Origin: Ulva prolifera
Lineage: Eukaryota; Chlorophyta; Ulvophyceae; Ulvales; Ulvaceae
DNA: 64,000 nucleotides
Assembly (NCBI GenBank): GCA_023078555.1
Contig: CM041204.1
Coordinates: forward strand, 1,584,923-1,648,922
Reading direction: 5' to 3'
Positions 9,780 through 34,825 of the stretch are shown one piece after another. The position numbers and the translations under genes are program-made. Positions within the stretch are counted from its first letter, which is position 1. Each line of letters opens with the position of its first letter. The notes under the pieces were generated by a model. It did no database searches, was not told the DNA's origin, and was given only the letters and a program-made list of their open reading frames with translations.

Positions 9780-11928
9780 CTACTGGTATTTGCCGGTGGC
9801 AAAGCCGTACGCAAGCCGGGCCTCTGCCAGCAGTACCCCCAGCACCGCTATCGTGATGACCAGAGGCACCCACATCTTCAGCAGCCATGCGGCACGTGAG
9901 TACGTCGCCATGTACCTGCACGCACCCATCTCTGTTGTCCGCGGCATCACTGTCTAATGATGTACCGGTTTTCAAAGTGGAGTTTGATCAGTATTTGATA
10001 GGGCTTGTCCGTGTGACTGTGCGGCTTGTGCACTACCGACAAATTCAAATCTCGATGTACATGTGAGACAGTGACGCTCACTAGCACTGGGCAACTGCTA
10101 TTTGAGAGCACAATTTATCAGGCACCATCTGGCAAGTTCCAAAAAGCTCTTATCTTCAACCAGGAGTGAGTTGCGTACGGTCGTCTGAGGGGGGTTTCCA
10201 GGTGGTTTACCCCTTCCGCATATGTGGTCCCGTTAACTCGGATTTGTCAATGTCCAGTAGGATACTCAGTAAATTCAGATTTACTTTACTTTACCAGGAC
10301 AAAGTCAGTTACGCGTCTTTGTTGGGGTTCAGGGACTACACTGCAGCGCCCTTCGGCATCAGCGCCAGTCCGTGCATGATCGCTTGCGAATGCCCATGGA
10401 CAAAGTGCTCAACCATGCTGGTAGAGATGTGAGCAGCAGCCATATGCCTTAGTGCCTGCACATTGACGTCGACAGGTGCATGCACGGTCACGTACCCGAA
10501 GAACAGGAGGCCGGGGGTCATCTCCACGAACGCAAACACAATAGCGACCCACTGCAGCGCTTGCCGCTTGTCGATATTATCCAAGCGCATCGCATCACCC
10601 GCTAGTCGATTCAGCGCTACCCCAATCGCTGCGGCGCTCATTGCAGTCGTCACCGCCAGCATCCAGAAATCAAGGGTGCCGTCCAGCGGCATCACCGCCC
10701 GCCGCGCCTCCGTCGCCCGCGACAGCATACGATGCGAAAAGCAGGAAGCCCAACTGCAGCCGCTCGCAAATTCTTTGTATTCCTCAACGTTGGGCGTCTT
10801 GTGGCTCCTGTATGTAGCCAGGCCTTGAACACCTGGCTGCGCACTGGGACCCTGCCGCTTCTCTGTGATCAACTTCAAGTTGCCATCATCACGCTGGTCA
10901 GCGGCAGCTGCAGCATCACCCATACTGCTGCTGTCGCTGCTCTTCAAGGCGCCAGCGCTGCCGGACCGGTGCTTATTTGCGCTGCCACTATCACGTGAAT
11001 CTGCCGTCAGGCCGAGCGCCACGTCTCCGACACGAGCTGTCGCCGGATCGTCCAGGTTCTTCACGACGGCAGCACCGGCCTTCGGAGTCACGATGAAACG
11101 CCCCCGCGGCTTCCAGCCGGCGAACACCATCGCCGTGTTGATGCACGCCTTGACGTGCGAGAACCAGAGGATGCGGATCGTCGTGCGCACGGACATGCCC
11201 GCCCAGGCCCGCTCCAGGCTGCTGTGGTACACCGTGATGAGGAACGTGATGCCCACGAACGGAACGTGGGTCCAGAAGAGCAGGGGGTCCATGCCGTAGG
11301 GGCAGAGCTCACACACGATGCATAAAAAGGGTAGGGTATGAAACAGTGGGGCGAACAGGAGCTGGATGATGCTGTTGACCGCAAAGCTTGCCCAGATGGA
11401 CCTCTGGTAGAGGGTCACGTAGCGCTCGCGGCGCCAGAAGAAGGAGTCGCGGTCCAGCAGGAAGAGGTGGCCACTCTTGATCCACCGCAGGCGCTGCCGC
11501 CAGATGTCACGCGGCGGCAGAGGCACCTGTACGTGAGCATGCATATATACGCATATGCACGTGCACATAGGCTGACTCGAGAGATAATCATGACTCTTGA
11601 GGACCCTGCACTGGCTGCACCACACTGCAGCCATGATCAGCATGGTGCTGAGGCTGGCACCGTGTGGTGATCACTCTCGTGAGCATTGTGCCTGAACGTG
11701 TTCAGAACTACTGCCACCACCAGCCGTCCGCACCTCCCCAGTCGCGAGCTTTTGGTCGATGAAAACCGATTTGAATCCTGCTGCCTGGAGCCGAGAGCCC
11801 ATCTCAAAGTCTTCACCCACTTGAAACTCTGAGAAGATCTCTCGGATGTCCACGCCCTCCTCTGGATCCGCCGCCGCCTCGCTCACCGTGTGCCGTTTCA
11901 GCAGTCTGCTTGTAGCGAATGCTGCCTT
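9780..11928 (-). CDS. Cellulose-synthase-like family 2 glycosyltransferase, C-terminal exons only
   Basis: Three exons join in phase on the - strand: about 11928-11734, 11526-10340 and 9915-9780 (stop at 9782-9780). The first contains GEDFEMGSRLQAAGF and ends LATGEV, the acceptor-side ED region of processive GT2 enzymes. The second opens with PRDIWRQRLRWIKSG, which is the QxxRW motif that grips the growing glucan. It then has several membrane helices (for example SFAVNSIIQLLFAPLF and HVPFVGITFLITV), an Asp/Ser-rich loop and more helices. The last exon adds a final helix (KMWVPLVITIAVLGVLL). The upstream donor-binding half with the first catalytic Asp residues is absent. A branch-site-like CTAAC sits about 25 nt before the first exon, yet only about 160 bp remain before the transposon begins. 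The gene is therefore 5'-truncated here, or continues elsewhere. Substrate is unknown; cellulose or a related beta-glucan is an inference. Confidence 0.85.
10166..10295 (+). repeat. SINE copy, 5'-truncated, in GT2 intron
   Basis: It is about 130 bp matching the 60.5-kb copy and ends in the TTTACTTTACTTTAC tail. It sits in the intron 9916-10339 of the GT2 gene, antisense to it. The tRNA-like head is missing. Confidence 0.8.
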
Positions 11929-11940
11929 TGCACGCACCAT

Positions 11941-12098
11941 GCAGTTAGTGCCTACACATGAGATCTCATGTGTAGTCTCTCTAGAGGACCTGTGGCGAGA
12001 GGCGGGGCAGCGCCGTTGTCTCCGAGGGTCTGCTCTGAGTCATTGCAGATCTGAACTCACAGTAGTACTCACAGGAGTATGTTCATGTAACGTGCACT
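11941..12098. other. Left flank of the transposon
   Basis: This is intronic or intergenic DNA upstream of the first visible GT2 exon. The three bases before the element are ACT. They do not match the three bases after its other end (TAC). Confidence 0.6.
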
Positions 12099-12128
12099 CA
12101 CTAGGAGAATGGCGACACACTGAAACGG
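12099..12128 (+). repeat. Left terminal inverted repeat of the CACTA element
   Basis: It matches the complement of 32157-32186 at 26 of 30 positions. It contains GAATGGCGACAC, a half-site that recurs in the internal palindromic arrays. Confidence 0.88.
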
Positions 12129-12638
12129 ATCCGGGTGTCGTCCGCCAGATTCCGAAAGTCCGTTCACTCTCTGATACCTCTCCGACGTCATCGGATGCGA
12201 GCAGTCGGATGGACCTTGGACTTTGGCACCGAACCATCCGCCGACCCAGGTATATTCCGCCGGACTGTGGACGTACCTTACCGCTGCAAGTGGCCTTCGC
12301 ATGTCTGCGCCGGCTGCCATGATACGAGGTCACTTCGGGCCAAGCCCGCGCTGACAGTGGATCGAATGATACTATTGGTTACTTTATTACTACATGCGGA
12401 TCTGGAAACGACTGGATTGGACACGGTGCAGGTATATGTGGACCCATACTCATGGCAACTGACATCGACTTTGGGCAGGAGACGAAGCGGCAGGAAGCTG
12501 GAGGCAGGCTCACAACAGCGGTGACTTTTTGCATCGCCCAAGATAGCGTTGGTCCGGATGTCAGGCTCGGCAGCAGTCCTTGTAGTGTTGGTCGTCGCCC
12601 TGTGAAAGGTGGCCGGGAAAGCGTGCCCATAGGTTCCT
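12129..12638. other. Left subterminal region of the transposon
   Basis: No coding signal. Repeated TCCG and CGGA words (about fifteen in 12125-12280), alone or as TCCGAC and CGGATG, resemble the short subterminal motifs bound by TnpA-type proteins in CACTA elements. Confidence 0.55.
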
Positions 12639-13303
12639 GGACACGAATGCATGCGGTGGTCCAGAGTGGCCATTCGGCGAATGGCCACTCTGGCGGAGTT
12701 ACGTCATCATGCTCCAGGTAAGGCGTGCGCCCGTCCTCCTGGACACGAATGCATGCGGTGGTCCAGAGTGGCCATTCGGCGAATGGCCACTCTGGCGGAG
12801 TTACGTCATCATGCTCCAGGTAAGGCGTACGCCCGTCCTCCTGGACACGAATGCATGCGGTGGTCCAGAGTGGCCATTCGGCGAATGGCCACTCTGGCGG
12901 AGTTACGTCATCATGCTCCAGGTAAGGCGTGCGCCCGTCCTCCTGGACACGAATGCATGCGGTGGTCCAGAGTGGCCATTCGGCGAATGGCCACTCTGGC
13001 GGAGTTACGTCATCATGCTCCAGGTAAGGCGTGCGCCCGTCCTTCTGGACACGAATGCATGCGGTGGTACAGAGTGGCCATTCGGCGAATGGCCACTCTG
13101 GCGGAGTTACGTCATCATGCTCCAGGTAAGGCGTGCGCCCGTCCTCCTGGACACGAATGCATGCGGTGGTACAGAGTGGCCATTCGGCGAATGGCCACTC
13201 TGGCGGAGTTACGTCATCATGCTCCAGGTAAGGCGTGCGCCCGTCCTCCTGGACACGAATGCATGCGGTGGTACAGAGTGGCCATTCGGCGAATGGCCGC
13301 TCC
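12639..13303. repeat. Left palindromic tandem array, 102-bp unit, seven palindromes
   Basis: The unit of 102 bp is repeated about 6.5 times with few changes. Each unit contains a perfect palindrome of arms AGTGGCCATTCG and CGAATGGCCACT around one central G. The palindromes start at 12665, 12767, 12869, 12971, 13073, 13175 and 13277. Because 102 is a multiple of three, three reading frames stay open across the array and repeat a 34-residue word; these are probably not genes. The arm contains the same half-site as the terminal repeats (GAATGGCCACTC against GAATGGCGACAC). Confidence 0.95.
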
Positions 13304-13556
13304 AGCGCGGTTGATCTCACCCTGCCCTACCCGAGTGATCAGGCGCCTTTGCATTCGGGGCCCCCAACTTGGGTCGTGCTTCATGAAAGGGACAAACGGT
13401 GGATATAGTGTATGATACGGCTAACTTCCAGCGTTTGGAGTTCACCTGGCGTTTAAGTGCACCGCGTCCCTGCTGGCGTCGTATTCCTTCGCCTAGCTGC
13501 GCTGCTCGTGACCAGTTTCCGCTTCCGGCAGTGACCAAAATATTTATTTGCATACA

Positions 13557-16500
13557 ATGGATCCGCGCCATGCTGCAGCAGTTGCAGGACTGTCAAGTAC
13601 CCAGAATGGGCCTACTTCCGCTCGCAGCGGAGACTTACTCGTTGGTCGCATGCGTACTCAGAGAATCCCTGTAGTGGGTACTTTAATTTCAAGGGACGGG
13701 CGTTTTACGGATCGTGCCCGCGTCGGCCGCAACGACGGTCCACTGTCCGGTCCTGGGGTGTCGGTGTGGTGGTCCCTGGGGGTGGTTCTGCGAGACGACG
13801 TGGTGGAGAGTCGGACGAGGGAGCTGGGTACGGCCAAGGAAGTGATTGTCACTACCTGTCTCGCGCTCTCCTCCTGGCTGCACGAGCAGGCAATGCTCGT
13901 GTCCTCGTGGGAGGGCACAGGGAAGACCCCACATGGCTGCCTTGTGCCCCGGCGGTGGAAGCCCCTGTTGGGAAAGAAAGAGGTGTGTGTGCCCGGTGTG
14001 CTGGTGGATCAGCTGAGCGCGATCTGCATTTACTGCCAGTCCACTGACACGGGGCCCAGCTAACCTGTGGAGTGGGGCCAGGACTCAGTGCCGCCATTTG
14101 TGCAGGTTGAGATCACCGGCCACGTATGTGAGTCTGGCCTCCCTAAGACCAGAATCACAGCGGAGAGAGATCCGGAACTTCGCCAGCGGTTCGATCTTCC
14201 TCAGATCAACGTGGGGGAAAAGCGCAAAGGCCCGGACCCCCCGCCTCCAGACGGTGTGCTCTCTGCACGCATGTTGTTATGTAACGCAGTCACGTATGCT
14301 GTCCCCACATCGTGCGCGGCATGGCCTCCGCATTCGTGCACAAGTGACATGGGTGTTCTCGGTGCAGTGTTTCATTGCTCCACCCCACGACACGTCGTGT
14401 GGGCCTGGGCTTCCTTCATGTCTGGGCTGTCCCCTCATCGCACCAAGTTGTGGACAGCCGGAAAGGCTTCTCCCGCGGTGGAGGGTCACGGGTCCTCCAG
14501 GAGCAGGGAGAGACCCACATCCAACCTCCCAGAGGACCTGAACCCGCTGGTGGCGTGGGTGCTGTATGAACACGCACACTGCGCCCAGCTCGAGAGCATG
14601 GATGAAGATGAGCTCGAGCCGTGTCAGTCGATAGCACGGCACATTGGGGACCGGTGCCCCAGGATGTTGGCGAACACAAACGGGGTCCCTGCACAGCCGG
14701 TTTTCCAGCTGACCTCGGGCGCGCCGGTGTTAGTCGACATGCACACCTCGCACTCGGACCTCATCAAAGCTTTCGTGCGCTCCGGTGACTTAACATGACT
14801 CCGGCATGGACAGGGGGACTGCCTGTTGGTCTGTGTGCTGTCCTGTTCTACCCGGCATTTGTGCCTTATCGCATGCATGATCGTGGCCATGGTGCCCCGG
14901 GCCCTGTTTCTGTCCCTGTTTCTGTTGATCCCTCAAGACTGGCCTGTCACCGGCCTGGGCTCGAGCTCTGTAGTCAGGTCTCTTTGCGTGCAGGATGTCA
15001 AGATCCTCGGTGAGTTTGTCGCCGCGCTCGACAACTTAGGACCCTGGGTAGTGGCTTATGCGGCGGAGCACCCTCTGTTTGATTGTGCAGAGGTGCGAGG
15101 TGCCACTGACCTGTACATGCCATCGAGAGCTGCGTGTCTGTGCAGAGCTGTATATGCTTGCTGTTGCCCGTCCCCAATTGTTGAGTATACCTGGATCTCG
15201 CCGTGCAGGGTGACCGAGTAGCCCGAGCTCTCCGTCCGGCGTGGAGTTCTGTCCAGGCATTCAATTCCCACATCATGTGGGCATGTGAAGGGCTGCAGCT
15301 GACCTCTACGGAACTGGCGTCCTTCGCCACGAATGGGGTCCACCTGTTCATGCATGCTTATCGGCGCCTCGTCGCCGCGGCTGTGACAGGGGACCCGGGG
15401 GCGCCTGTCCTGGAGAGGCGGCGTGTGCAGGACATTCCAGTCTTGGAGCCCAGCCTCCTGGATCCCGCCTTTGCCGCCATCCTGGTGTGCACGGTGAATA
15501 CCAGCAGTGCGCTACCAACCTTTTCGTCTCCATTGTTCAGGATTCAGTTGTTACCTGCTGTAGCCCCCGAGGTGGGGCAAGACTCAGCTTTGCAGACAGT
15601 GCTCTCGTCTGAACCACGCGGTGCATCCAGGTTTGGTGAAATCGGGGTATGGTCAGCCCGTCAAGAGGCTGGCCGACGACCTGATCCCCTTGTGCCCGCC
15701 CCACACGCTGTGGCACTGGGCGCTCAGGAGCTGGCGGTACCTTAGCGTGGTGCAGAAAGACATCGCGGGGAGCAGTTCCGGGAAATCAGCATCCCCGTCG
15801 GTTGTCCGCCTTAGGCCAGGATCATTCCCCGGGATCAAGGACTGGGATTATGCCGGCGCTGAAGATCTTGCCAAGCTGTCCTTGGCCAAGGGGATGCAGA
15901 GCTCAAAGTGTTACATGTGCGAACCCCCGGTGATGGTCCCTACAGTGACCAGGAGTGTCTCTTGCAGAACATGCTCCCTGCATGTTCAGTCGTATGCGTC
16001 TGAGTTCTGGCCATCAGATCCTCCTGTTCTTTCACCAACGGGAGCATGTGTTGCTGTTAGTTGATCCAGAGTTGACATGCACGGGCCCTGGGACTACCAG
16101 CGTGTTCTGTTTGTTGTTGGCGACTCTGGTTAATTTTACAGGGCGGAGCTCAATAACATTCCCGAAGGTATCCTCGCCACCCTGCCCGAGGACTTGCGGC
16201 AGCCGCCTGTCGTACCACCCCAGCCTACCCCTGGGGCAGGGGGTGCCGGTGACACCCCTGCCTCTGGCCAGCGCAACCGTCGACGAACCGGGAAGCACGA
16301 GGTAGCTAAAGCACGTACCAAGTCGCTATTGCTGCGTAAGATGGGCCTGCCACCAGCCAAGAAGGGGGACACAGCCGCTGGCGGCACCGACACCGGCGGC
16401 AGCGACACTCAGGAATCCGGTGGGGACAGGGGCACCACCCGCCCTGCGTCCAAGGTGGCCACAGGGCCAGAGGTGCTCGGCCCGGGTGCCGCTGCGGGGC

Positions 16501-17704
16501 CGGGGCAGGGGAGGGCAGTCTCCCAGCCGGGGGGGGGATGCGTGTGGCCGTCCCGCAGAGGCTCTGCCGGTCACGGCAGTGACAGGGGGGTTGAGCCTGA
16601 CTGTGGGGCGGGGGGTGGTTTGGGGGGGAAAGCAGCGGCGGTGGCAGATTCGGCGGCGAAGGCGGGATTGAACCCCACTGTGAGGGTGGCAGCCACTGGG
16701 GGGGCTGCGGAGGCATTGCCAGTCACAGCGCTGAAGGCGGGACTGAGTCCCGTGGAGGGGAGGGCAGCGGGGGGGGGAGACGCGGAGGCTACGGCAGGCT
16801 TGGCGGGGCAGGGCGGGTTGAGCCCAACGGTGGCGGGGGCGGGGGGGGGGGGGGGGCTGGGGGGGGCTGGGCTGCAGAAGCTATGGCAGACATGGCGGCG
16901 CGTGGCGGGTTGAACCCACCAGTGGGGGGGGAAGTTGTGGGGGATGTTGCGGGGATCCCCTTGCAGGGTCAGGACGCTACAGGTCGTCCAGAAGTGGGCC
17001 CCTTTGGCCTGCCTGTCCCCGTGCCGGCGGGGGGACCGGCACCGACACCTACAGGGTTTATGCAACCGGACAGTGCGGGAGGAAGTGGGGGTCTGGTGGA
17101 CGATCCGGTAGCAGACGCCATGTTTGCAGATGCTCTCGCTGAGGCAGTGCTGTATCCGGAAGACCACTCCTCAGACGATTTCGGATCCATCAGCTTGGAT
17201 GACGATTCGGTTCGTTCTGACCCAGCGGACCCCCGCTGCGCTGAGCACGAAGTGGCGGCAGAGGACCCTGAGACTAGGCCGTCCCAAATAATCTACCTGC
17301 ACGATAGTTCGGGGTCAGTTCGTCTAACCGTGGACGAGTCCTTCGAGGAGCAGAAGACCACCCTGCACATGGCCGCCACTTTCGTATCCCCTCCGGGTGG
17401 TTCGGTCGGGCGTGCAGCTCAACTGCGGCTCATTGTCGTGGCAGTGGACCTGATGTTGGTAAGCACCGCCGGCATGGGTTTGACTAAAGCGGAGCGCTTA
17501 GTCCGCATGAAGTCGATCATATCGGCTTACGGGCTCCAACCAGATGAAGGCACTGTATCCGAAGTTGTGTCACTGATTCAGACGGTGCGCTCCTCCAAGC
17601 AAACAACCCCCGCCACCCCCCCTGGCCAGTCTGTCGCATGGCCGTGGTGGGCCAATTCTCTACTCCCGCTCCCAAGGCAGACGTACAGTACCCAGGGATG
17701 TTGA
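13557..17704 (+). CDS. Transposon gene 1: large multi-exon protein of unknown function
   Basis: Exons that join in phase: 13557-13982, 14106-14253, 14368-14774, 14994-15092, 15209-15484, 15564-15916, then 16142 onward to a stop at about 17704. The junction at 14253/14368 leaves one split codon, and the 14774 donor is a best guess. The protein starts MDPRHAAAVAGLSSTQNG. Its middle has conserved-looking segments such as VAWVLYEHAHCAQLE, FNSHIMWACEGLQLTSTEL and LWHWALRSWRYLSVVQKD. Next comes a Gly/Pro/Ala-rich linker (16.2-17.05 kb) where G-runs make the frame uncertain, then a possibly globular acidic-to-basic end (IIYLHDSSGSVRLTVDE; LTKAERLVRMKSIISAYGL). It has no recognised domain. Its place opposite the Tnp2 gene suggests a TnpA-like accessory protein, which is inference only. 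Confidence 0.6.
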
Positions 17705-17757
17705 CCGTGCAGGGACGCAATTCTACAGAGGGCAGCGAAGCCGTCCCAGCCCCGGAT

Positions 17758-17851
17758 CCTGTGGTGAATACTGGTTGATGAGCAAAGTCCCTGGGGGATG
17801 GGGGCCTGTGGTGAATACTGGTTGATGAGCTAAGTCCCTGGGGGATGGGGG
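17758..17851. repeat. 47-bp direct repeat, two copies
   Basis: Two near-identical head-to-tail copies begin at 17758 and 17805 (words GTGGTGAATACTGGTTGATG), just after the stop of transposon gene 1. Confidence 0.85.
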
Positions 17852-17859
17852 TGCCGGTA

Positions 17860-18510
17860 GCACAGCTGCGTGGGAGTACACTTTAATGCGGCGTGCAGTG
17901 TCCGCTAAGCCATCAAGCGTAGAACTTCCCGGCAGTATCAGCATAGTAACTTTGTTAATGCAGATGCTACGGGAATACGTCAAAATTATTCCCATTTCGA
18001 CGGTAATACAAGGACGGTGGGCCACATCACTGTACAGTGATGCACCCCCGTCTACTAGTGCCATACGCTCTGCTATAATGCAGGGGTTGACCGTTGTACC
18101 CCTCTAATCCTACAGCGCCGACCTGGTGTAGCCGTTGAGGATTGATAGTATTTTTTACACGAAATAACGATTAGAATACTGAGTCGAACTCCGTACGCAA
18201 ACTGTGGCGTCTTGTCTTCTGTAGACAATGGGTTCAGAACAGTTTCAGCTGTGCCTGCCTGGCAGCAGCCCGCAGCGCTGCAGTCGAGACACCGAGGTTC
18301 AGTGCAGCTGCAGCGAAATGGCATCACCTGGCCTGTGGCGTCGGAATCTCCCGGATGCCACCCTTCAGTGTCTCATAAACGCGTCTTCAGCGATTTAGCC
18401 ATCAGCTTGTTATACTGCTGTTTCAGGGTAGCCACTACCGGGCGCGCAGTCTCCAGGAAGGCGTCAAAGCGCGCCTGCAGGTACCACTCCCTGCAGATCC
18501 AGCAGCTTCA
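17860..18510. other. Spacer between convergent transposon genes
   Basis: AT-richer than its surroundings. No coding signal was recognised on either strand. It separates the 3' ends of gene 1 (+) and the protease gene (-). Confidence 0.5.
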
Positions 18511-19096
18511 TCAGGCAAAGGTCCCCACCGGGCCTCCAAGGGGGTGCCAGAGGATAGATGGTGACAATGCTGCGGTGGACATGGCAGGTGCATCGACTCG
18601 CCCGCACCTCAGCTGCTCTTCGGAAAAGTCTTTGAAGGGCGGTGTCTGGAGGTGGCGGTCCCACCTAGCGTCGGCTAGAATCTTGGTGGCATCCTCGACT
18701 GATAAGTGTCCCAACTTGTCGCCCCCTCTCCCGCCTCGGTGCCACTCTTGAATGAGGGCTCGAGTGAGGACGATACGGTACAGCACCGCGTGCTGCACCT
18801 TGACGCGGTTGGTGAGTAACAGGACCCTTCGAGTCGCCTCGACACCGTGGATGTCACTGCTGAACACAGTTCCCCCCTCCTGTCGCATGCGGTGGATGAC
18901 GTCGCACACAGCGTCGGCCAGCATGCATGTGAAAACCCCGCAGTCGTGGCCGTTTGGTTGCTGCGGGGTTCCTCCTACCTGGACACCATTGGGGGACGGT
19001 TATAATGCTAATGTTACGTCAACAGATCAAGTCCACCGCAGACCTTGGACGCGGGGTGGTTCCAAAGCAGTACGCTGTCCGGGTTCGGGCAGAGAA

Positions 19097-19135
<39 letters not shown>

Positions 19136-21765
19136 CAGGTGGGCGCATTCAGAGGGTGCTGTTGTGTCAACGATTGCAGTCCATTTGGTAATATGCGCGA
19201 CTGTCAAGGGTCAGAGGACAGCATCTGTGTGGATGGTATCGCAGGAGAACAGTGGGACGTGGGCATTGTACCTTCGCCAACTTCAGGGTTATCCTAGCGG
19301 TGGATTCGGTCGGCCGGGTGGCCAGTCGGACGTTGTGTGGGCGGCCCACTGCTTTTACCCGAGGCCGGGTGGTAGATGCGGGGTCTTCCGGGGGGGAGGG
19401 GGCCCGGCCCTCGGGGTAGTCCAGCGCCATGCACAGAGCCTCACTCAAGACGTCCCTGGCCCGTTCAGCGGTGCCTGAGCCGGCGCTGATCAGGCTGTCA
19501 AAGAACGACACAGTCGGCGCCTTATTCTGCTTCATACGCCCTGCATTATGGCTGAAACGTCAGTAGTGGCGTTCAGCGGGCCTACTGTGGGGGGGGGGGG
19601 GGGTATGGGGGGGCGGGGGGCAATATGACAGTCCTACGCACAGCAGGCTACCTCATCACAAAGTCTGCTGCGGCGGGAGAGCGTACATGGATGCCAGATG
19701 ACAGCCAACATCCAGTGGCCGTTCCGGGGGACAGGGACTAAGACACATTCTTGCTCAAAGGTGTGAGCTTTGAACAACCACCGCCCCATAAATCTGGTGC
19801 GTCCGCTTGACCAGTCTGCGTCCGCATCCCCAGTACATATCCCAGCCATATTCTGGCTAGGCGTTGCAATGACGCCCTGCCCGGCCAGTGCGACACACCT
19901 ACTCAAGGCGTAGTCAACGTGTGTACTCTCGGCCCATGCGGTGGGCCAGCCTCTCGCGAGGGTTTCCAGACCGACTGTCACAGACACCCGAGCATCCCCA
20001 AAATGCCCTAGTTGCAAGATCACACCCCCCACCACATTCGGGAACCTCCCCCCATCGTCGTCGTCGGAGGACACTACGGTCGGTTCAGCTGCATCCTGCG
20101 TTGTGTCGGCAGCGGATGTACCGGCGTCTTTGGAAGTGGACCCCCACTGCTGCTTCAGCTTGCCCGGAGGCTTTGCAGGGATGTTTGTGACCCAATCCGG
20201 CGGCACCACCGGAGGGTGTGCCAGGAGGGATGCTGACAGCCGCGGCTTATCCTTACCGGCGGCCGAAGGCTCCGGGACGTCCGGGGCAGGAGGAGGTGCG
20301 GACTGGATTGGCCCCTCTTGACCGGGTGCTGGACAAGCAGGCTCCGGAGAGGTCCGGAGCGGGGGGGGGGCCTCGCCGATGGAGCAGATGGCTGCACCGA
20401 CTGGGGCAGGTTGGGGCCCCTCGCTAGGGCCACCATCAGGGGTGACGGATGGAACCGGATTGGCATCGGTGTCCGACCTCGCCTTATTGTCTCCTTCGGC
20501 AGGGGGGTCCGCAATGGGCCCTTCCCAGGCGGGGGGATCATCCGGGGGACCTGCCGGCCCCGCGTCTGCGGCAGCTAGTCTGGTTTCGATAGCTGTAGCG
20601 GATTCGTCCAGCCGCGGCGGCGGCAGACAGCCACTGGTCCGCGATGGCGACGGCGGCCTCACAGGGCCAACCGGCTGTGGGGACTGCTGGGGCAACGCCA
20701 CAGGGGGAACCCCTACTGCAGCCGGCCCCTCGGGCGGCGGATGATCCCGGCTAAGGATCTGCGCTACGGCCGCAGCCCCCCCCCGTGCGGCACCCCGTGC
20801 CCCCCTGGGCCACCTAATTCGGGCGGGCTGCTGAAGACTGGTGCCCCGATCTGCGCGCCCTCTACCCGGAGCCCGTGCCCCTCGTGCCTCGCCAACCCGC
20901 TGCTGCTGCCGCGGATGGGTGTGTCTGCCACGCCCCTGCCTTCGGTCACCCGGGCCTATGCTGGTGCCGCTGGACTCTGTTGGCGGCGGGGCAGCGGCTG
21001 CACCCGGTCCTGGGGCTGTGGCGGTGCCGGTGACGCCCCCAAGAGCGGCGTCGGGTCCCCCCCGGTCTTCACCGTGCCGACCCGCCCGCCCCACCCCTAT
21101 CTAGCTGTAACGCCAACATGGGCGCCTGCAGAGGCCCCACATGCACCTCGGAGACGAGGCCACTTAGGATTTGGAGTCCGTGCGAAGTTTGCCTCGCACT
21201 GTATCCACTCGCAGATCAAGTCTGTCCCGCCCGTGTGCCGCACACGTTCGAGCAGGCCGCCAGCGTCTTCTATGATGCCCGCGCCGACCTGGCAAGACCG
21301 GTACAGCACGATATCCTCTGGCTTGCACGGGGCCTTAGTATGGACCGCGCGCTCGAATGCGATCATCCGGAGGTCGTGCCAGAGGGATTTCATCTTCTGC
21401 TCTACCCGCGCGGCGTGGTCGGCGGTTTGTGAAGCCTCTACACTCTCCTTCATCGCCCGGATCGAGTCCAGGTACATTGCTAACCCTTCCCCCCCGGCCT
21501 CCACTATACAGCCCACCATGGAAACATCTACAGTCGTTAATAGGTAGGCGTTGGCCATGAAGTCTATCGGGAACCCGGGCTTCCGGGTACAGATCGTTAG
21601 TGCTGGGATCGGCTGGCCAGGCGTCCAGTTACCCTGCAGGGCGGTTTCCAGGAACCGCTTGAAAGACGAGTCACACAGACGGTTACTACGAATTGTCGCA
21701 AGGTAGGCCCGCAAGTCCGCGTCCTTTATCATACTGGCACACATCGTGTGGACTGTACACCGCAC
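18511..21765 (-). CDS. Ulp1/SENP-like (C48) cysteine protease encoded by the transposon
   Basis: Read right to left. A first open exon at 21765-21140 has no known motif (AMKESVEASQTADHAARVEQ). A long Pro/Ala/Gly-rich exon from about 21094 ends at 19652 with VLVPVPRNGHWMLAVIW, the beta-strand plus catalytic His region of Ulp1 proteases. Exon 19526-19359 supplies APTVSFFDSL, the typical DSL strand. Exon 18978-18511 supplies TPQQPNGHDCGVFTC, with the oxyanion Gln and catalytic Cys. Junctions between the last three are GT-AG and phase 0. Family members remove SUMO or related tags, and Ulp1 domains are known passengers of CACTA and Mutator-like elements. The Asp of the triad was not pinpointed. 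The last intron carries a 35-base homopolymer. A tail of about 110 residues after the Cys motif has no assigned role. Confidence 0.82.
19100..19134. repeat. G35 homopolymer
   Basis: 35 consecutive G on the + strand, inside the intron between the DSL and catalytic-Cys exons of the protease gene (C-run in the transcript). Confidence 0.9.
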
Positions 21766-22097
21766 AGAAACGTTCTATCCGCGCTATCGCGACGCAGTCT
21801 TCCTACATCAACTGCATCAGACCTTGCACCTACCATTAATCTGTCCGCTGGACCTGCGACGTGCACTAACAGACGACACCGACGCTTGAAGAGGGAGCGA
21901 AAGTGGCCACGAGCGCACGACGCAGGACGTGGGTTGTATGGCTCCAACGAGGGTGGCGCCTGTAGACACGCACTGGCGGGGACTCTGGTCCCCCCCGTGG
22001 CCGTCTGGCAAGTATGGAAAATGCAAAGTGGGCACAACTGGGATTGCAGTCAACTGGGATTGCTGACGAAGGCATATGCGGCGGTGGTCTTGTACAA
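21766..22097. other. Spacer between transposase 3' end and protease 5' end
   Basis: About 330 bp between two same-strand genes, with no coding signal I can support. It may contain the protease promoter. Confidence 0.45.
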
Positions 22098-25000
22098 TTA
22101 CACAGTTCGGCCAGAAGCCTTGTTCGCAGTGGCCCAATACTGCACATTTTGTGCACCCCTCCGGACTGGAACTAACTGGCATGGAACTGCGTCCAAGTCT
22201 ACGACGTATCTGCCGGCATATGCCCGAGACCCCCTGTTTGCACCCGCCACACCGAAAAACTCAGGGGGGCGTTTCAACACGGGATCAGGGGCGCGGGCTC
22301 CCGGGGTGGCTGGCAAGGTGCAATTATACAGATCAGCAACCCCCAGGTACAATGGGTTTGGTTTCGCAACACATGACACGCAACACACGCCATCCCGGGG
22401 CTGCAGACACGCCCTCGTGAAATACTGCAGTTCCCCGACGAAATACGTCACTGTCCCGCCACCCCCGTCCCCGTCCCCCCCAATGAGGTACCTCAAGAGG
22501 CACCACTTGTTGTCTTTCTTCCCTTGCGTACCCTGTTGCGCGCAGCTGAACATGTCTGCAACGCGGGATTGCATCTGGTGGAACTTCATAAGTGTCACTG
22601 TGCCCTCACGGCGAGCCTCATCAACACTGCCATCCACCTTCAGGCCCAGAGCTCGGTGGATGGCCAGCCTGACGTGCATAACCAACCCCCAGGCGACTGT
22701 GAGTTGGCCAGCCCTCGTCCTGTAGGGAGTCCTGATGGAAGAGGAGGTACGGCAAGCCCTGTCAGATTATCTCCCACAAAGTCCAGGGGGAGGACCTCCG
22801 CAGTCTCAGACTGGGCTAGGGCCCTGCCCACCCCCGACGACCCTGCCGGTGATCCGGTCACTGTCAATTGGTTGCTCCCCGTCAGCGGATCTTCCATTGC
22901 GAGTTCGTGCCCGCCGGCGTTTCTCAGTCGCTATGGCATCTGACAGTGAAGTCATGGCAGCAGGCAGTGAAGCTGCATCATGCAACAGCCGCATACATGT
23001 GCGGCGCAGCAGTTCATCGCTCACATATACTTGTTCAGGGCAACGAGTCGATCGATACTTGATCAGTCTCTTCAAGAGCTGGACCATCCGCTCGATCCAG
23101 AATTCAAGACTGAAGAAGGATGCGCCGCAGCACCTCACCTGATCCGGGAGGTGACAAGCTGCCAGATGCAGCTTGTACGTGCTGAGAGCGGCGCCCTCAA
23201 ACGTCTCCTCCGCCAGCTTGGCGTACTGCAGCATCAGTCGCTGTGCTTCCGTGATTCGGGCCGGTGTGTGCTGACCCTCTTCATATCTGAGAAAGTAGAG
23301 GGCCCCTGCTCGCAGGAGCCCCCAAGACTGCTCAAACACACTGCGTATGCGTTTCTCGGAGGCTTTCCACGGGAGATCGTGCAGGAGGTACAGCGAGAAT
23401 GTCTCGGTGAAGGCCAGCCAGTCTTCCATGAGCCAGCGACTGCGGTGCCTACGCAAACAGTCACCCTGACTCAGACGGGCTGCTTCAATAGGAGTGCACA
23501 TGGTTCCTGCAGCTGTGTCCAAGTAACAGTCCGACAAATGGCGCAGCCTCGGATGCGAGCAGGGTGTGCAGGCGATGGGACTGCGCACTTGGTGATGTCG
23601 GTGTACACCTTCTTGAAAAGAGAGGTCTGCATGATGTGGGGGCGCTCTGGCAGCTATCGCCTTGACGACATCCTCTGGCAGTCGGAACAGGGCCCGGAGG
23701 CCAGTCAATGGCGCCTTCTTGGACTTCTTCCGGCCCAGGGGAGGGAGCCACTGGTTCCAGAAGTCCATGAGCACACCGAGCAGAAACACGTGCGCCACTT
23801 CCGAGCCGGAAGAAATGGCAGGGACTGCAACGCCACAGCGTAATTCATAATCAACTCCAGACTCAAGGGCGAGGCAGGCAGCAGCAGGCTGGGGGTGCTC
23901 GTACTTGAAGTAGGAGAGGAGACTGAACAGCGGAGAACCTTTCACCCCCAGTAGCTTGTACTCATCTTTGGCGAGCTTGGCCCTGGACTTCGGTGTCTTC
24001 CGGTCGCAATAGCGTTTCAAGGTTGGTGCGTGGACCTGCATTACCACAGGCCTGGCCAGGGTTACCACAAGAAAAGAGCCGTATCACCAACGACGCTTGT
24101 TCGGTGTACAGAGGGGTTGGCAGATGAGTTGCGGCGCACAGAGGGGGGGGCAGGGGAGTAGGCCGCATGTGCACAGTTTGCATTCGATGACACTGTAGAT
24201 GGAATTGCACCTGGGCAGCGATCGTGTCGCCCTTTCGGCCCCTGGCCAGGATCTCTGCCGCCGAGTACTTCAAGCGGTTGTCAGACTCCCAGGACGAGGG
24301 CTGCACATGCCGGGGCTCAGACCACGCGGTCCGCGGAGGGGTTGCCACCAGTGTCCGGTTGTACACTCCCAGGCACCATCCGGGGGTTTGCAGCCGAGGA
24401 TGCTGCTTCTTCCTCCGGGGTGAGTGATTTCCCTTTCAGAGGCCCGTCGGCATAGCAGGGCACGGGCTGGTGCAGAGGGTGATGGTGTCCCATCCACCTG
24501 TGTGGCATGCATGATAGCAGTTATAAGCAGGACAGGTACGTGAGACAGCACTAGCAGGAAAGAGATTACAAACGTAAGTGAACACCCCGGACCTGACAGT
24601 GTTGGAGGGGTAATCCCACACGCCGTTTTGGGGCACATCTGAAACATGCCCTCTTCGTGTATGGCCGATGCTGTTGGTAAGTTTCTCCAGCCACGGGATA
24701 TCCCCCTCCACACAGCACAGCACCGGCCCACGTGCAGTACCACCTCGCCCCCGGGCAGTGTGATTTGAGTGCCTCACCCCCAGCTCCTGCACTCCAGCCA
24801 TCACGTGGTGCGGGGGCCAGACACTACGTGATCGGGAACTGTACACATCACCCGGCAGTGACCAGGAAGACAAGGTGAGTGCGCGCCCGGATCATGCTTC
24901 TTGAAGAACGCCATCACGGACTCCAGAATGCTGGCCATGCATGTTGGTTCGGATGGCCCCTCCACCACTCCAAGGGGAATCCAGGCCACATTGGTACTTG

Positions 25001-28000
25001 AGAGATTGGGGCGGCAGGTCAAGCAGGCGGATCCCCCAGATTGTGACACCGTGCTGCTTGTTGACGTACAGCTGGGCCCCGTCCCCCCCTGCAGGAAAAG
25101 CGACTGTCGGGACACGAGGCAGAGGGTCTCAATTCGCGGAGTTGCATAGGCGTGCCGATGCGGTGTGATAGCCACCTGCTCAGATGAGGAGGTGGAGCGC
25201 ACCGAGGCTGAACAGCAGGACAAGCTCCCTATGCTTTGGCTTCAGGATTTTGCCCCCACACGCCAGGTTGAGGGCCTTTCCAGCCGGGGAGTTGAGGAAG
25301 CTGCTTTTGTCTTTGACAGCTGTTGCCCTGGCTTCCCGTACGCTCGTCANATGCGAGCAGGGTGTGCAGGCGATGGGACTGCGCACTTGGTGATGTCGGT
25401 GTACACCTTCTTGAAAAGAGAGGTCTGCATGATGTGGGGCGCTCTGGCAGCTATCGCCTTGACGACATCCTCTGGCAGTCGGAACAGGGCCCGGAGGCCA
25501 GTCAATGGCGCCTTCTTGGACTTCTTCCGGCCCAGGGGAGGGAGCCACTGGTTCCAGAAGTCCATGAGCACACCGAGCAGAAACACGTGCGCCACTCCGA
25601 GCCGGAAGAAATGGCAGGGACTGCAACGCCACAGCGTAGTTCATAATCAACTCCAAACTCAAGGGCGAGGCAGGCAGCAGCAGGCTGGGGGTGCTCGTAC
25701 TTGAAGTAGGAGAGGAGACTGAACAGCGGAGAACCTTTCACCCCCAGTAGCTTGTACTCATCTTTGGCGAGCTTGGCCCTAGACTTCGGTGTCTTCCGGT
25801 CGCAATAGCGTTTCAAGGTTGGTGCGTGGACCTGCACTACCACAGGCCTGGCCAGGGTTACCACAACAAAAGAGCCGTATCACCAACGACGCTTGTTCGG
25901 TGACAGAGGGGTTGGCAAGATGAGTTGCGGCGCACAGAGGGGGGGCAGGGGAGTAGGCGGCATGTGCACAGTTTGCATGCTATGACACTGTAGATGGAAT
26001 TGCACCTGGGCAGCGATCTTGTCGCCCTTTCGGCCCCTGGCCAGGATCTCTGCCGCCGAGTACTTCAAGCGGTTGTCAGACTCCCAGGACGAGGGCTGCA
26101 CATGCCGGGGCTCAGACCACGCGGTCCGCGGAGGGTTGCCACCAGTGTCCGGTTGTACACTCCCAGGCACCATCCGGGGGTTTGCAGCCGAAGATGCTGC
26201 TTCTTCCTCCGGGGTGAGTGATTTCCCTTTCAGAGGCCCGTCGGCATAGCAGGGCACGGGCTGGTGCAGAGGGTGATGGTGTCCCATCCACCTGTGTGGC
26301 ATGCATGATAGCAGTTATAAGCAGGACAGGTACGTGAGACCGCACTAGCAGGAAATAGATTACAAACGTAAGTGAACACCCCGGACCTGACAGTGTTGGA
26401 GGGGTAATCCCACACGCCGTTTTGGGCACATCTGAAACATGCCCTCTTCGCTGTATGGCCGATGCTGTTGGTAAGTTTCTCCAGCCATGGGATATCCCCC
26501 TCCACACAGCACAGCACCGGCCACACGTGCAGTACCTCGCCCCCTGGCAGTGTGATTTCGAGTGCCTCACCCCCAGCTCCTGCACTCCAGCCATCACGTG
26601 GTGCGGGGGCCAGACACTACGTGATCGGGAACTGTACACATCACCCGGCAGTGACCAGGAAGACAAGGTGAGTGCGCGCCCGGATCATGCTTCTTGAAGA
26701 ACGCCATCACGGACTCCAGAATGCTGGCCATGCATGTTGGTTCGGATGGCCCCTCCACCACTCCAAGGGGAATCCAGGCCACATTGGTACTTGAGAGATG
26801 GGGCGGCAGGTCAAGCAGGCGGATCCCCCAGATGGTGACACCGTGCTGCTTGTTGACATACAGCTGGGCCCCGTCCCCCCCTGCAGGAAAAGCGACTGTC
26901 GGGACACGAGGCAGAGGGTCTCAATTCGCGGAGTCGCATAGGCGTGCCGTTTCGGTGTGCCTGATAGCCAGCTGCTCAGATGAGGAGGTGGAGCGCACCG
27001 AGGCTGAACAGCAGGACAAGCTCCCTATGCTTTGGCTTCAGGATTTTGCCCCCACACGCCAGGTTGAGGGCCTTTCCAGCCGGGGAGTTGAGGAAGCTGC
27101 TTTTGTCTTTGACAGCTGTTGCCCTGGCTTCCCGTACGCTCGTCAGCAGCCCCGGCTGCAGGAGGAGGTCTTTCAGCGAGGCTTCTTCGCCAAAGAAGAA
27201 AGCAGAGCGCACTGGGACACCCTTCCCTGTGAGATCGACATCGAATCGCTGTTGACAACAACCAGGGGTTCCGCAGGTGTCCGCCAAATGCTGGTGATGG
27301 TCACCCGGATCAAGTGGGGGGAACAAGGTCCAGCATTGGGGACAAACGTGGCGCGTCACAGAGGAAACAGGCGGGACACCCAACACCGCCTTGACGAGGT
27401 GAAAGGAGGGGGGGAACAAGTTGCCATCGGGTAGCAGGAGGTAATGTATGAACCTGCACCACGTATCGACGACCACGTCTTGTATGCGAAAGAGGCTCTT
27501 CAACTGGGCAATCCACATGCACACCGTGAGGACGGTGAGGGCGCTGCCAGTGTATATGTGTTTCATGCGTTGGTCATGCCACCAGGCGCCCGTGCCCTTA
27601 CGGGCCCCTGTGGTGGGGAGCGGGCCGTCGTCATCCGCCTCCTGCATGGGCAACGATGCGGCCAGTCCCACGGAGGAGTACGAGCGGATTCACAGCATTG
27701 CATGTAATGGAAGATGAGGACACACCTCGGATTCGTCTGAACTGTAGTCCGTCTCTGAGGAGAAGGCAATGGAGTCTGCGTCTGAGGTGTCTGAGTCGGC
27801 GTCTGAAAATTGTGCGGGGCCCTCGGCATAGTCACTTTCGGACGGTGGGGGCAGCTGTATCACAATCCCAACACATCAGAGTTGCTTTGGGCGAGCAGGC
27901 AGGATACAGCTGAGGGACAGACGCGCTGACACCCATGGCCATCGTGATCACGAGCCGCTGTCAGGCCGAACTGCATCATGATCAGGCAAACCGGGACTTA

Positions 28001-28426
28001 GCACGGTCAACTACCGAAGGTACGCACGTCGAAGAGGTCGTCGGAGTGGGCAGGCTCATCGGGGGGACCCCCTATGTCTGGAGGTGATGGGGATCTCCCA
28101 GAGGGACCGGCCCCGTCGTGTCTGCCGCTGCGGTCATCATCGGCAGTAGCGGAGGTCGGGCCAGCGGCTGGCCTCGAGTCTGGGCCCGCGACGTCGTGTC
28201 CACCAGCGGCTCTCCGCGATGTGGCTGCTGCACTCAGTCGACGGCTGCAAGGACCGTGATGGTTTTGGGCGGTGTTGTGCCTCTGAAACTTCTCACCACA
28301 GGCTAGACACTGGTATTTAAACGGTTCCTTCCCCGTCGGCTCGGGAGGGGTCAGGCGCTTACAGTTCGCTTTGGCAACCAATTCGTTCACCTCCGCCCTC
28401 TTCAGTCTATTCGCCGAACCGGCCAT
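22098..28426 (-). CDS. tnp2: Tnp2-family (En/Spm CACTA) transposase, split by introns and by an internal duplication
   Basis: The N-terminal exon begins at 28426 and carries a zinc-finger-like CxxC with His/His/Cys (YQCLACGEKFQRHNTAQNHH), likely DNA-binding. Next come a second Cys cluster (CPQCWTLFPPLDP) near 27.3 kb; GDGAQLYVNKQHGVTIWGI near 26.87 kb with the first likely catalytic Asp; VEGDIPWLEKL then ACFRCAQNGVWDY near 26.5 kb, the D-x-P motif and metal knuckle typical of Tnp2; KLLGVKGSPLFSLLSYF then HVFLLGVLMDFWNQW; CGASFFSLEFWIERM near 23.09 kb, like the DUF4218-type tail; and GRYVVDLDAVPCQLVPV at the C-terminus. The 25351-27145 exons are repeated at 23553-25349, so the gene as assembled carries the middle third twice. 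Exon edges were not all fixed. Confidence 0.85.
23553..25349. repeat. 1.8-kb duplication, left copy
   Basis: It matches 25351-27145 end to end. By eye there are about 40 differences, many of them single-base indels in homopolymers, so identity is near 98%. The copy stops exactly at the single N at 25350. Confidence 0.93.
25350..25350. other. Single undetermined base (N) at an assembly join
   Basis: The only N in the window. It sits exactly between the two 1.8-kb copies, which argues for an unmerged overlap. Confidence 0.95.
25351..27145. repeat. 1.8-kb duplication, right copy
   Basis: It starts directly after the N with ATGCGAGCAGGGTGTGCAGG, the same words as at 23553, and ends with CGCTCGTCA, the words just before the N. 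The structure is that of two overlapping contig ends joined with a placeholder base. Confidence 0.93.
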
Positions 28427-28763
28427 GGTAGCCAGCAGTACTTAAGCATTCTTGTGACGAGGTTCAACAATAGCGCGGCCTCTGGTGTTTGTCGTCCCTA
28501 TGATGGCTTTACGTCCCACGAAGACCTCCCTGTCGCATCCCATGTTCGCCCTGACGCCACAATCCCTGGCGAGGCGCCGGGGTATCGAGGCAGCCAAACC
28601 TTTGAAGGCGGACCGCGCGACGACGCTACATCGGCATACCATTCAAAGCACGGAGCAGCAAAGCATGTGCGAATGACGCGATATGTTAGCTGTGCCTACG
28701 ATACGACCATCCACAGTACCGGCCATAGACGTGTGTTAATTCCGCTTTGTCTAATCATCCACC
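28427..28763. promoter_or_regulatory. Putative divergent promoter of transposase and gene 2
   Basis: 337 bp separate the transposase ATG (28426, -) from the ATG of the next gene (28764, +). The head-to-head layout suggests shared control. No TATA box or other defined element is clear. Confidence 0.4.
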
Positions 28764-29691
28764 ATGTCCAACCTGCAGTTCACGTTCCTCCGCGCGGCGC
28801 CCGTCGTCATCGAGAAAGAAGTTGTAGATGACGCAGACAACGGAGCAGGGATGCTTGACGTGCTGGTCAGCAACGTGTGGAGCAGAGGTGCCGGCGTCGA
28901 CGGGTTGACTTTGACGTCAACCGTCGACAAAGACAGCTCCGTTGATATCGACAGTGTCGAGAAACTGATGACGTGCGTAAAGTACTTCTTCAGGAAAGGC
29001 ACAATCGCTGGACTGCTGAAGCCGCCCGTGCTGGTGAAGGCGCTGGGCAAGGGCAGAGGGAGCGTGGGACAAGCGTCGGCAGCCGTCGGCACTGCACACT
29101 CCACAGCTACGGCCTTGACTGCGGACCCCGAAGCTGCCAGGCGGTGGGAAACGATGAAGGATGCGGTGATGATGTGGACGGAAGGGATGAGATCCAAGGT
29201 GGCGGGAATGGCCGATGCCCACACGCGAGGCAAGAAGGTGCAGGCACTAGTGAACCTGGCCCTCCCAGACGACGAGAAGGTGTGGGTCGGGAGTATTCTA
29301 ACGAAAACACAGGCGGACGCACTCGGCAAAGCTGCACATGGGGTACGGCTGCTGTCTCCGACTAACAACGTGATTGCAAACTGGGGTCCACTACCACCCC
29401 GTCAGGGCCACGGGATCGCATGCCACCGACTGTCAGTGTAGTGTCTTGGCACGTCAGAGTCGCCATTCGCGGTCAGTATGCAGTGACGGATATCGTGTAC
29501 AGGTCGGCAGAACAGGTGAAGCGTACGAAGCTGCTACTAATATCAATCATGCTTTCTACCGCCAGCACGCCCATTTGAACGCCGTGACCAAAGAGTGTGC
29601 CTCTGCTGATGCTCGGGTTATGCCGTACCTGTTGCCGTGCCCAACGGTGGCGGAGAAGGGAAGCACACAGTATCCGCCCAAACGGAGGTGA
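28764..29691 (+). CDS. Transposon gene 2: two-exon protein of unknown function
   Basis: Exon 28764-29342 (193 codons) begins MSNLQFTFLRAAPVVIEKEV. It has a Val/Asp-rich first part (VDIDSVEKLMTCVKYFFRKG) and a charged second part (AARRWETMKDAVMMWTEGMR; HTRGKKVQALVNLALPDDEK). A GTACGG donor follows. A CAG acceptor leads in phase to 29503-29691 (TGEAYEAATNINHAFYRQHA, ending YPPKRR then stop), giving about 255 residues. No family is recognised. It lies next to the right array and divergent from the transposase, so it may be a second transposition protein that binds the array; this is inference. Confidence 0.62.
29458..29469 (-). promoter_or_regulatory. Isolated terminal-type half-site
   Basis: Reads GAATGGCGACTC on the - strand, one base from the 12-mer inside both transposon ends (GAATGGCGACAC). 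It lies in the intron of transposon gene 2. Confidence 0.4.
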
Positions 29692-29840
29692 CCCGATGTG
29701 CAGTAAGTTTTCGAGACGGGCGTGGGACCATAACACGGGCCTGCGGAGGAATCCCAGCGCCCGCGAGCAGAGGAAGCTGCTCGCGGCAATGAATGTGTTC
29801 CAGAACACCAAGGCATGTCCTCCACCTTGGTCCGAGTTGG

Positions 29841-30260
29841 AGTGGCCATTCGCCGAATGGCCACCCCAGCGCGAATGCATTGTGTTGCACTGCACGCGGC
29901 CGGAGTGGCCATTCGCCGAATGGCCACTGCAGCGCGTCATGCATTGTCTTGCACTGCACGCGCCCGGAGTGGCCATTCGCCGAATGGCCACTCCAGCGCG
30001 TCATGCATTGTGTTGCACTGCACGCGCCCGGAGTGGCCATTCGCCGAATGGCCACTCCAGCGCGTCATGCATTGTGTTGCACTGCACGCGCCCGGAGTGG
30101 CCATTCGCCGAATGGCCACTCCAGCGCGTCATGCATTGTGTTGCACTGCACGCGCCCGGAGTGGCCATTCGCCGAATGGCCACTCCAGCGCGTCATGCAT
30201 TGTGTTGCACTGCACGCGCCCGGAGTGGCCATTCGCCGAATGGCCACTCCAGCGCGGCGC
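29841..30260. repeat. Right palindromic tandem array, 64-bp unit, seven palindromes
   Basis: Palindromes with the same 12-base arms as the left array start at 29841, 29904, 29968, 30032, 30096, 30160 and 30224. Here the central base is C instead of G on the + strand, and the flank CCAGCG lies on the right side. The array is therefore in inverted orientation relative to the left one. The spacers (GCGTCATGCATTGTGTTGCA type) are unrelated to the left spacers apart from the immediate flanks. Confidence 0.95.
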
Positions 30261-30283: not shown

Positions 30284-31372
30284 ATGGCCACTGACCTGCC
30301 ATTCGGCGACTGTGTTCCAACCAATGTGGTTCGTGCGCAGTTCACCGTGAGAGGAGACCGCTTCCCTATCGATAGCGAACCCATGAAAACCCCCGAGGCC
30401 TGGGCTATGGAGGACGGTGAGTATGTGTGCGAAGGAATCGCCAAGGTTGCTGCGGCCCGGCGCGCCCTCGAAGGGACCGCTGACTCTCCCGTCCAACGGG
30501 GCAAGAGACAAAGGAAGACCGAGAAGGTACAATCTCACCACACGCTGTACTGCCCGCCTGAGGTTGGCCATTAAGTGGTACCGGGATTGTACGGGCGCCT
30601 GTGTGAGCGGCATGTGCCATCATTCGAGGCAGCCATGCGTGTACAGGCTCCTACCGCATCGAAGTCAGGAAGACGGGGCACTCATTCCAACAGCGGACGG
30701 CGCACAATGCTCGCTGACTTTTCTCCCCGGCGGCCAGGGCTAGAACCAAGGGCAGACCGCACTGCTGATAAGGACAGTGAGCACCAGCCGGACGTGGAAG
30801 AGGTGGGTCACGATCAGATGGGTGAAGAGGAAGAGCCTGATTCTCCCCAGCGGGCAGACGATCGATGCGAGTCCCCGGAGATGGAGTTACAAGCCGCAGC
30901 GCCGGTATGTCCTCTTATGATTTGTGCCAATTGACGCCTAGTCCGATTGTACTTGCCCCACCCATCATCAGACCAGGTGTAAGAGCGCCTGTACATTGCA
31001 GAAGTCCAACAAAGCTCTTGAGAAGCGAAAGGCCAAGGCAGAGAAGGAGGCCGCCCTCCAAGCGCGTAGGGATATTCGGAAAAAGATTGAGGATTGCGAG
31101 GCTAAGCTGGCAAGGCATCAGCCCAGAAGCAAGGGTGCGAGTGTGCAGAAATTAAAACAGCAGGTTGCTGTATTGACGGTATGTCACTACCCCGATACAC
31201 TTGATCTGACATGTGACACCAATGCCTGCAATTGTAGCACTATTTGTGTGACAGTCGCTCAGACCTCGAATGCATTAGAGCCGTGCACTCATGCAGCTGG
31301 TATTGCATGCAGGCCGAGTTGTCAAAGGTGCAAGACTCCTTAATTGACGGCTTCCCGGACGAGGACGAGTAG
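30284..31372 (+). CDS. Transposon gene 3: four-exon coiled-coil protein with acidic tail, unknown function
   Basis: Exons 30284-30526, 30647-30904, 31002-31178 and 31313-31372 join in phase 0 with GT-AG borders (GTACAA, GTATGT and GTATGT donors), giving 245 residues. The first exon begins MATDLPFGDCVPTNVV directly after the right array, and its true start could lie further upstream. The second exon is Arg-rich, then strongly acidic (QMGEEEEPDSPQRADD). The third is a Lys/Glu-rich likely coiled coil (KSNKALEKRKAKAEKEAA; KIEDCEAKLARH). The last ends SLIDGFPDEDE and a stop. It resembles no family I know. It lies inside the element, between the right array and the right end. It might form one transcript with gene 2, with the array in an intron. 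Confidence 0.65.
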
Positions 31373-32156: not shown

Positions 32157-32186
32157 CCGATTCACCGTGTCGCCATTCTTCTAGTG
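32157..32186 (-). repeat. Right terminal inverted repeat of the CACTA element
   Basis: Its complement starts CACTAGAAGAATGGCGACAC. The stop codon that ends the neighbouring LRR reading frame (TAG at 32183-32181, - strand) lies within this terminus. Confidence 0.88.
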
Positions 32187-34480: not shown

Positions 34481-34543
34481 GTCCACAGCAGAGGTCCACT
34501 GCTGTAGAGGCCACTGTAGACGGGCAGTCCACAGTAGATGTGG

Positions 34544-34630: not shown

Positions 34631-34825
34631 CAACAAAAGCTGGGTCCTCTGAGATCTGAGGCTGGCCAGTCCTCCAGCTCCCCCGGTCCGTTTCAGCATC
34701 GATCCGACCACTGCCTCTCTGGACTTACGCTGGTCCCGTGATCCTATGCCCCACTTAACGCGACACGAGTGGCCGCGACCTGACTGTGCAAGGCGGGTGT
34801 CGAACTACCGACCTCACGAACCCAA

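Follow-up and report, generated by a model that had tools for sequence, protein, structure and literature searches.

Two tandem arrays of a palindrome lie inside, and near, the two ends of a putative DNA transposon in a 64,000-nucleotide stretch of Ulva prolifera DNA (GenBank assembly GCA_023078555.1, contig CM041204.1, positions 1,584,923 to 1,648,922 of the forward strand; hereafter the window). We consider it likely that these arrays represent subterminal repeats of a CACTA (En/Spm)-like element, made up of paired half-sites for a protein encoded by the element itself. We favor a CACTA-like element because the terminal inverted repeats (TIRs) begin with CACTAG and are 19/20 identical, and because the palindrome arm resembles the TIR beyond chance. 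CACTA (En/Spm) transposons are named after the CACTA motif at their tips. The ends, arrays and half-sites, in window coordinates, are as follows.

12099 to 12118, plus strand: left TIR, CACTAGGAGAATGGCGACAC, 19/20 identical to the right end
12635 to 13302, plus strand: left tandem array, period 102, 98% matches
12664 to 13302, plus strand: seven left palindromes, GAGTGGCCATTCG-G-CGAATGGCCACTC, starting at 12664 + 102n, unit 102 bp
29457 to 29468, minus strand: solitary half-site, GAATGGCGACTC, one mismatch from the TIR version and from the array version
29839 to 30256, plus strand: right tandem array, period 64, 97% matches
29840 to 30249, plus strand: seven right palindromes, GAGTGGCCATTCG-C-CGAATGGCCACTC, unit 64 bp, the first 63
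32167 to 32186, minus strand: right TIR, CACTAGAAGAATGGCGACAC, 19/20 identical to the left end

The palindrome core is 27 bp long, with a 13-nt arm on either side of one central base that is G in 7/7 left and C in 7/7 right palindromes. This core is intact in six of the seven left copies and five of the seven right copies; the last left copy, which also has a different 3′ flank, and the first two right copies each carry a single base change. In four left units the perfect arms run to 16 nt and in two more to 15 nt, whereas five right units have perfect arms of 14 nt. The right palindromes start at 29840, 29903, 29967, 30031, 30095, 30159 and 30223. An earlier interpretation made from the letters alone (the sequence-only reading) had described seven palindromes per array with identical 12-base arms, a central G on the left and C on the right, and unit lengths of 102 and 64 bp. 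The palindrome counts and central bases were borne out; the arms do share a core, but one of 13 nt that is not intact in every copy, and the unit lengths were confirmed except that the first right unit is 63 bp. Allowing two mismatches, GAATGGCCACTC is matched 64 times in the window, far above the 8.1 matches (standard deviation 3.1, maximum 17) found in 100 shuffles; 53 of these matches are in the arrays, two are the terminal copies and nine lie elsewhere, which is about the chance number. The 14 palindromes amount to 28 half-sites near both ends, counted as subterminal repeats as these are defined in PMC8978399 (here and below, PMC8978399, PMC2613891, PMC2528002 and PMC4219821 are cited for parts of their text). 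Outside the arrays, no further palindrome within nine mismatches of the 27-mer occurs in the 64-kb window. A possible eighth palindrome of the right array, in decayed form at 30298 (3 mismatches in 17), was considered and found unconvincing, given that a shuffled window is expected to yield 1.6 plus-strand matches at four or fewer mismatches (20 shuffles).

The 20-bp inverted repeat at both tips has the consensus CACTAG[G/A]AGAATGGCGACAC and contains the half-site GAATGGCGACAC, at 12107-12118 on the plus strand and 32167-32178 on the minus strand. As the sequence-only reading had noted, the palindrome arm is two bases off this half-site, matching the TIR at 10/12 positions; a match of 10/12 or better to the 20-nt left TIR was reached by only 16 of 20,000 random 13-mers drawn from the element. 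The arrays are positioned inside the ends, at a distance from the nearest TIR of about 545 bp on the left and 1.9 kb on the right. The solitary half-site at 29457-29468 may be an intermediate between the TIR and array versions, with a chance origin also possible; by plain arithmetic rather than by shuffling, about 0.1 such one-mismatch half-sites would be expected in 20 kb. The nominal length of the element is 20,088 bp, or about 18.3 kb once a repeated 1.8 kb, described below, is taken off. The DNA has a GC content of 58%, and its genes, as read from the sequence, look eukaryotic.

These features suggest that each 27-bp palindrome would be a head-to-head pair of a half-site whose slightly altered version is found in the inner part of the CACTAG TIR. 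We infer that an element-encoded protein, perhaps a TNPA-like dimer or the zinc-finger region of the transposase, binds the palindromes as a dimer, and that many copies of this protein loaded near each end would bring about synapsis of the two ends for cutting. The bound arrays might in addition control genes whose 5′ ends seem to adjoin them, and the domain that binds the palindromes, or one related to it, could also recognise the half-site in the TIR. The repeat units would have multiplied as ordinary minisatellites, by which each array would have been homogenised. The subterminal repeats of Spm/En are cis-acting sequences for excision and transposition and are recognised by TNPA; proteins of the TNPA type have little sequence in common from one element to another (PMC2613891). 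Methylation could likewise have a regulatory part, by analogy with soybean TgmR*, in which the mutable line goes with lower methylation near the subterminal repeats (PMC4219821). The sequence-only reading had taken the arrays for transposase-binding platforms made by mirroring the end sequence; the CACTA-type ends and the mirrored, TIR-like half-sites support this in part, as they fit predicted binding sites for a transposition protein. A bolder form of this idea, in which one protein recognises both tip and arrays, the arrays are the mirrored tip half-site and each palindrome is a mock pair of joined ends, seems to us rather unlikely. If true, it would break with the prevailing view, which assigns the TIR to the transposase and the subterminal repeats to another protein (PMC2613891).

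Known CACTA systems offer close but incomplete parallels. The 20.5-kb soybean element Tgmt* likewise has CACTA ends, a length of about 20 kb and subterminal palindromes at each border, two on the left and twelve on the right (PMC2613891). It differs in having a 17-bp repeat motif within 159 and 732 bp of its ends, asymmetric counts and a 3-bp target-site duplication (PMC2613891), whereas here there are seven and seven palindromes, one per 102- or 64-bp unit, and no duplication. The TIR of the Chenopodium CACTA element Jozin also begins with CACTAG, and the two ends of Jozin carry comparable numbers of a 12-bp subterminal motif, e.g. 9 and 10 (PMC8978399). The motif sequence differs from ours, however, and no perfect-palindrome array on minisatellite spacers is described in the parts of that paper covered. 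In four of four species (sequences from PMC8978399), the first ten bases of the Jozin 12-mer find their best alignment in the final ten bases of the TIR, at 9, 8, 9 and 7 of 10 positions; as good an alignment was given by 47, 236, 22 and 1536 of 5000 shuffled motifs in the same order of species, compared with 7 of 5000 by the same measure for the Ulva element. This likeness of motif and TIR thus appears clear in two species, borderline in sosnowskyi and not beyond chance in vulvaria. En/Spm of maize resembles our element in having a 12-bp subterminal repeat motif, recognised by TNPA (PMC2613891), a parallel of arrangement; it differs in possessing TNPA, for which no counterpart was identified here. 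Palindromic and TIR-echoing subterminal repeats therefore have precedents, in Tgmt* and Jozin, and what is new is the perfect head-to-head dimer, one per minisatellite unit and at both ends; no perfect-palindrome minisatellite arrays at CACTA ends are described in titles and abstract openings among the matches listed. If our reading is true, the arrays offer clean, nearly identical dimer sites at even spacing, set among two unrelated kinds of spacer, and would lend themselves well to studying how the subterminal repeats of CACTA elements function and whether these are derived from the TIR.

The relation between the two arrays is less simple than was first proposed. Left and right spacers align locally no better than chance, direct or inverted (8 tests, p 0.056-0.85, with one left spacer set against two of the six on the right). 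The sequence-only reading had called them unrelated, which stands except for one 8-nt flank match, CAGCGCGG, found at 8/8 and in direct orientation immediately 3′ of the innermost left palindrome and of the last right palindrome. CAGCGCG directly follows the palindrome in all seven right units, and the last unit has CAGCGCGG. Random flank trials reached 8/8 in 3 of 5000 cases and 6/8, the level of the best inverted flank match between the arrays, in 635 of 5000; the direct match is the sole significant flank similarity found between them. Because the repeat unit is palindromic, the opposite orientation previously assigned to the arrays is weakly founded: it rests on one base, and that central base points one way while the flank match points the other. 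No wider subterminal homology between the ends emerged from eight comparisons with 100 shuffles each, the best of which (left outer versus right outer inverted) was equalled or exceeded by 5/100. The occurrence of one palindrome on two differing spacers, near both ends, would nevertheless support function and argues for conservation or exchange.

Inside the element, a series of minus-strand open stretches lies between about 28.4 and 18.5 kb, and the presumed transposase gene there appears to be split by introns and by an apparent contig join (below). Four stretches bear on the identity of the encoded proteins.

18514 to 18999, minus strand: Ulp1-like peptidase motif (Q..DCG), Peptidase_C48, 22 residues matched
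22809 to 24083, minus strand: presumed transposase open stretch of 425 amino acids, with a weak DUF4218 match
28010 to 28441, minus strand: C2H2-like zinc-finger pattern, read from the sequence, near the presumed 5′ end of the transposase gene
30942 to 31340, plus strand: K/E/Q-rich open stretch with a coiled-coil look, read from the sequence, between the right array and the right end

The Peptidase_C48 match (E = 1.7e-4, 22.0 bits versus a cut-off of 20.7) covers profile positions 160-181 of 217, and the nearest PDB sequence to this stretch is yeast Ulp1, 1euv (E = 0.018). Ulp1 domains have been reported in plant CACTA elements (PMC2528002), and the short Peptidase_C48 and weak DUF4218 matches would fit such an element. 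The zinc-finger pattern is matched by zf-C2H2_7 of Pfam at no better than E = 0.054, below cut-off; an NGHW motif can be read in the upstream stretch 19637-21100, which has no Pfam match; and 30942-31340 has no Pfam match. A structure model of the 425-amino-acid open reading frame (ORF) was unusable (predicted local distance difference test score 37). The zinc-finger and Tnp2 assignments of the sequence-only reading are consequently plausible but below Pfam cut-offs or unmatched, and the identity of the transposase as Tnp2 is plausible, not demonstrated. Matches below cut-off to an AsnC-type helix-turn-helix and NigD_N, in the antisense frame of the left array, were not used, nor was a weak match to DUF7902 on 21100-21774 (E = 0.062). 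An NCBIfam search of five pieces gave nothing relevant, and Rfam and tRNA searches gave nothing. In the presumed intron of the Ulp1-like region there is a run of 35 G (19100-19134).

A number of results weigh against the interpretation of the arrays as CACTA subterminal repeats. The DUF4218 match on 22809-24083 is below cut-off (13.9 bits, E = 0.05, cut-off 27), and Transposase_21 of Pfam, the family of Tnp2-type DDE transposases that is often accompanied by DUF4218, has no match among the 37 overlapping entries from inside the element, a search that covered part of the open stretches and took each exon separately. Among the element's open stretches, no candidate was confirmed for a TNPA-like or other protein binding the palindromes. 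The half-sites form no wider field, with nine outside the arrays and TIRs versus 8.1 expected at two or fewer mismatches, and the units here are wider apart than the CACTA subterminal repeats described as 'closely spaced' (PMC8978399). Within the arrays, the palindromes are no more conserved than the spacers, variants numbering 3 in 378 palindrome positions versus 6 in 635 spacer positions (Fisher p = 1.0; five of the six right spacers counted, the 36-nt one left out), and the selection on the palindrome that the sequence-only reading had proposed is not seen at this level. Relatives were sought in collections that are by description viral, plasmid, bacterial and archaeal, where absence says little on eukaryotes. 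The 27-mer palindrome was located in neither viral_contigs nor genome_contigs (0 loci each), the TIR pattern had 0 in viral_contigs, and the left array had no match in plasmids; the ORF at 22809-24083, as protein query, led to candidate stretches, 2 in viral_contigs and 52 in genome_contigs, of which none was confirmed. No related element was thus found in these collections to show the palindromes travelling with these ends. Finally, the 3-bp neighbours of the element differ, ACT on the left and TAC on the right, and there is no target-site duplication.

The missing duplication has to be read together with an apparent join and with the genes at the flanks, since the two ends may not belong to one insertion.

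10339 to 12039, minus strand: GT2-like glycosyltransferase gene, Glyco_trans_2_3, apparently cut by the left end
25350, no strand: single N, an apparent scaffold join inside the element, flanked by two near-identical copies

The N at 25350 is the only one in the window. The sequences on either side of it, 23553-25349 (1797 bases) and 25351-27145 (1795 bases), are identical at 1767 of 1805 positions (97.9%), and 25350 is probably an unmerged overlap of two contigs; a true tandem duplication seems improbable, given that the N marks the exact boundary of both copies. In the left flank, Glyco_trans_2_3 is matched above cut-off at profile positions 60-120 of 198 (E = 4.9e-7) and below cut-off at positions 121-196 (E = 0.0034). 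The first part of this gene would be expected beyond the element, but the right flank instead carries a leucine-rich repeat (LRR)-like coding sequence up to the TIR (E = 1.4e-5, 25.5 bits, just under the cut-off of 27). Taken together, the missing duplication, the different flanking genes and the N join mean that the arrays possibly belong to different copies. The sequence-only reading of a single element with seven palindromes at each end is therefore not upheld: it is unlikely that the interval is one intact copy, and the assembler may have put together ends and arrays that belong to different copies. Alternatively, an element-mediated rearrangement or an old insertion could account for the missing duplication. 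Symmetrical 'two-ended' structures in draft assemblies may cross an unrecognised join and call for caution.

Other explanations for the arrays were considered alongside the subterminal repeat reading. It is unlikely, in our judgment, that they are mainly promoter or operator clusters through which an element-encoded repressor or activator controls the element's genes, without taking a direct part in bringing the ends together. Judged from open frames, the right array does separate the presumed start of the minus-strand transposase gene (~28.4 kb) from open stretches of the plus strand that follow 30.3 kb, and the left array precedes plus-strand open stretches from ~13.5 kb; TNPA, which recognises subterminal repeats in Spm/En, is moreover capable of regulating itself (PMC2613891). 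However, these gene starts are readings of open frames and not mapped transcripts, and the half-site is present at the very ends too, a location that a site with a regulatory role alone would not require.

The arrays might also be functionless minisatellites, captured or home-grown, that spread by slippage and exchange and whose likeness to the TIR reflects origin or chance. Units that are 97-98% alike in each array, with palindromes and spacers varying equally, are what recent tandem growth would leave, and Chenopodium quinoa is reported to have a CACTA-like element with a satellite array inside it (PMC8978399). We regard this explanation as quite improbable all the same: one 27-bp palindrome is present on two spacers, once near each end, and the match of its arm to the TIR is beyond chance. 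The palindromes could, lastly, act as hairpins or cruciforms (obstacles to replication or recombination, or sources of small RNA) and not as double-stranded binding sites. When folded in silico as single strands they do form stems of 15 and 13 bp with 3-nt loops (z -9.4 and -7.5 versus shuffles), but any perfect palindrome folds in this way and nothing here indicates single-stranded use. Short palindromes are moreover thought to extrude poorly in cells, and we give this explanation very little credence.

Elsewhere in the window there are further palindromes and repeats. A 97-bp near-perfect palindrome (92.8%) at 34539-34635 is possibly a small hairpin element, and a palindrome with 14-bp arms at 37535-37564 overlaps an 11-bp tandem repeat. 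A 140-bp dispersed repeat is present in inverted copies, 91% identical, at 10166-10302 and 60436-60575. An LRR-like gene region contains a diverged duplication (66%) at 44742-47080 and 49335-51714. A long array of 36/105-bp repeats (40283-41674) lies within a 690-amino-acid open frame, and a 19-bp unit at 47058-47422 is repeated in about nineteen near-identical copies.

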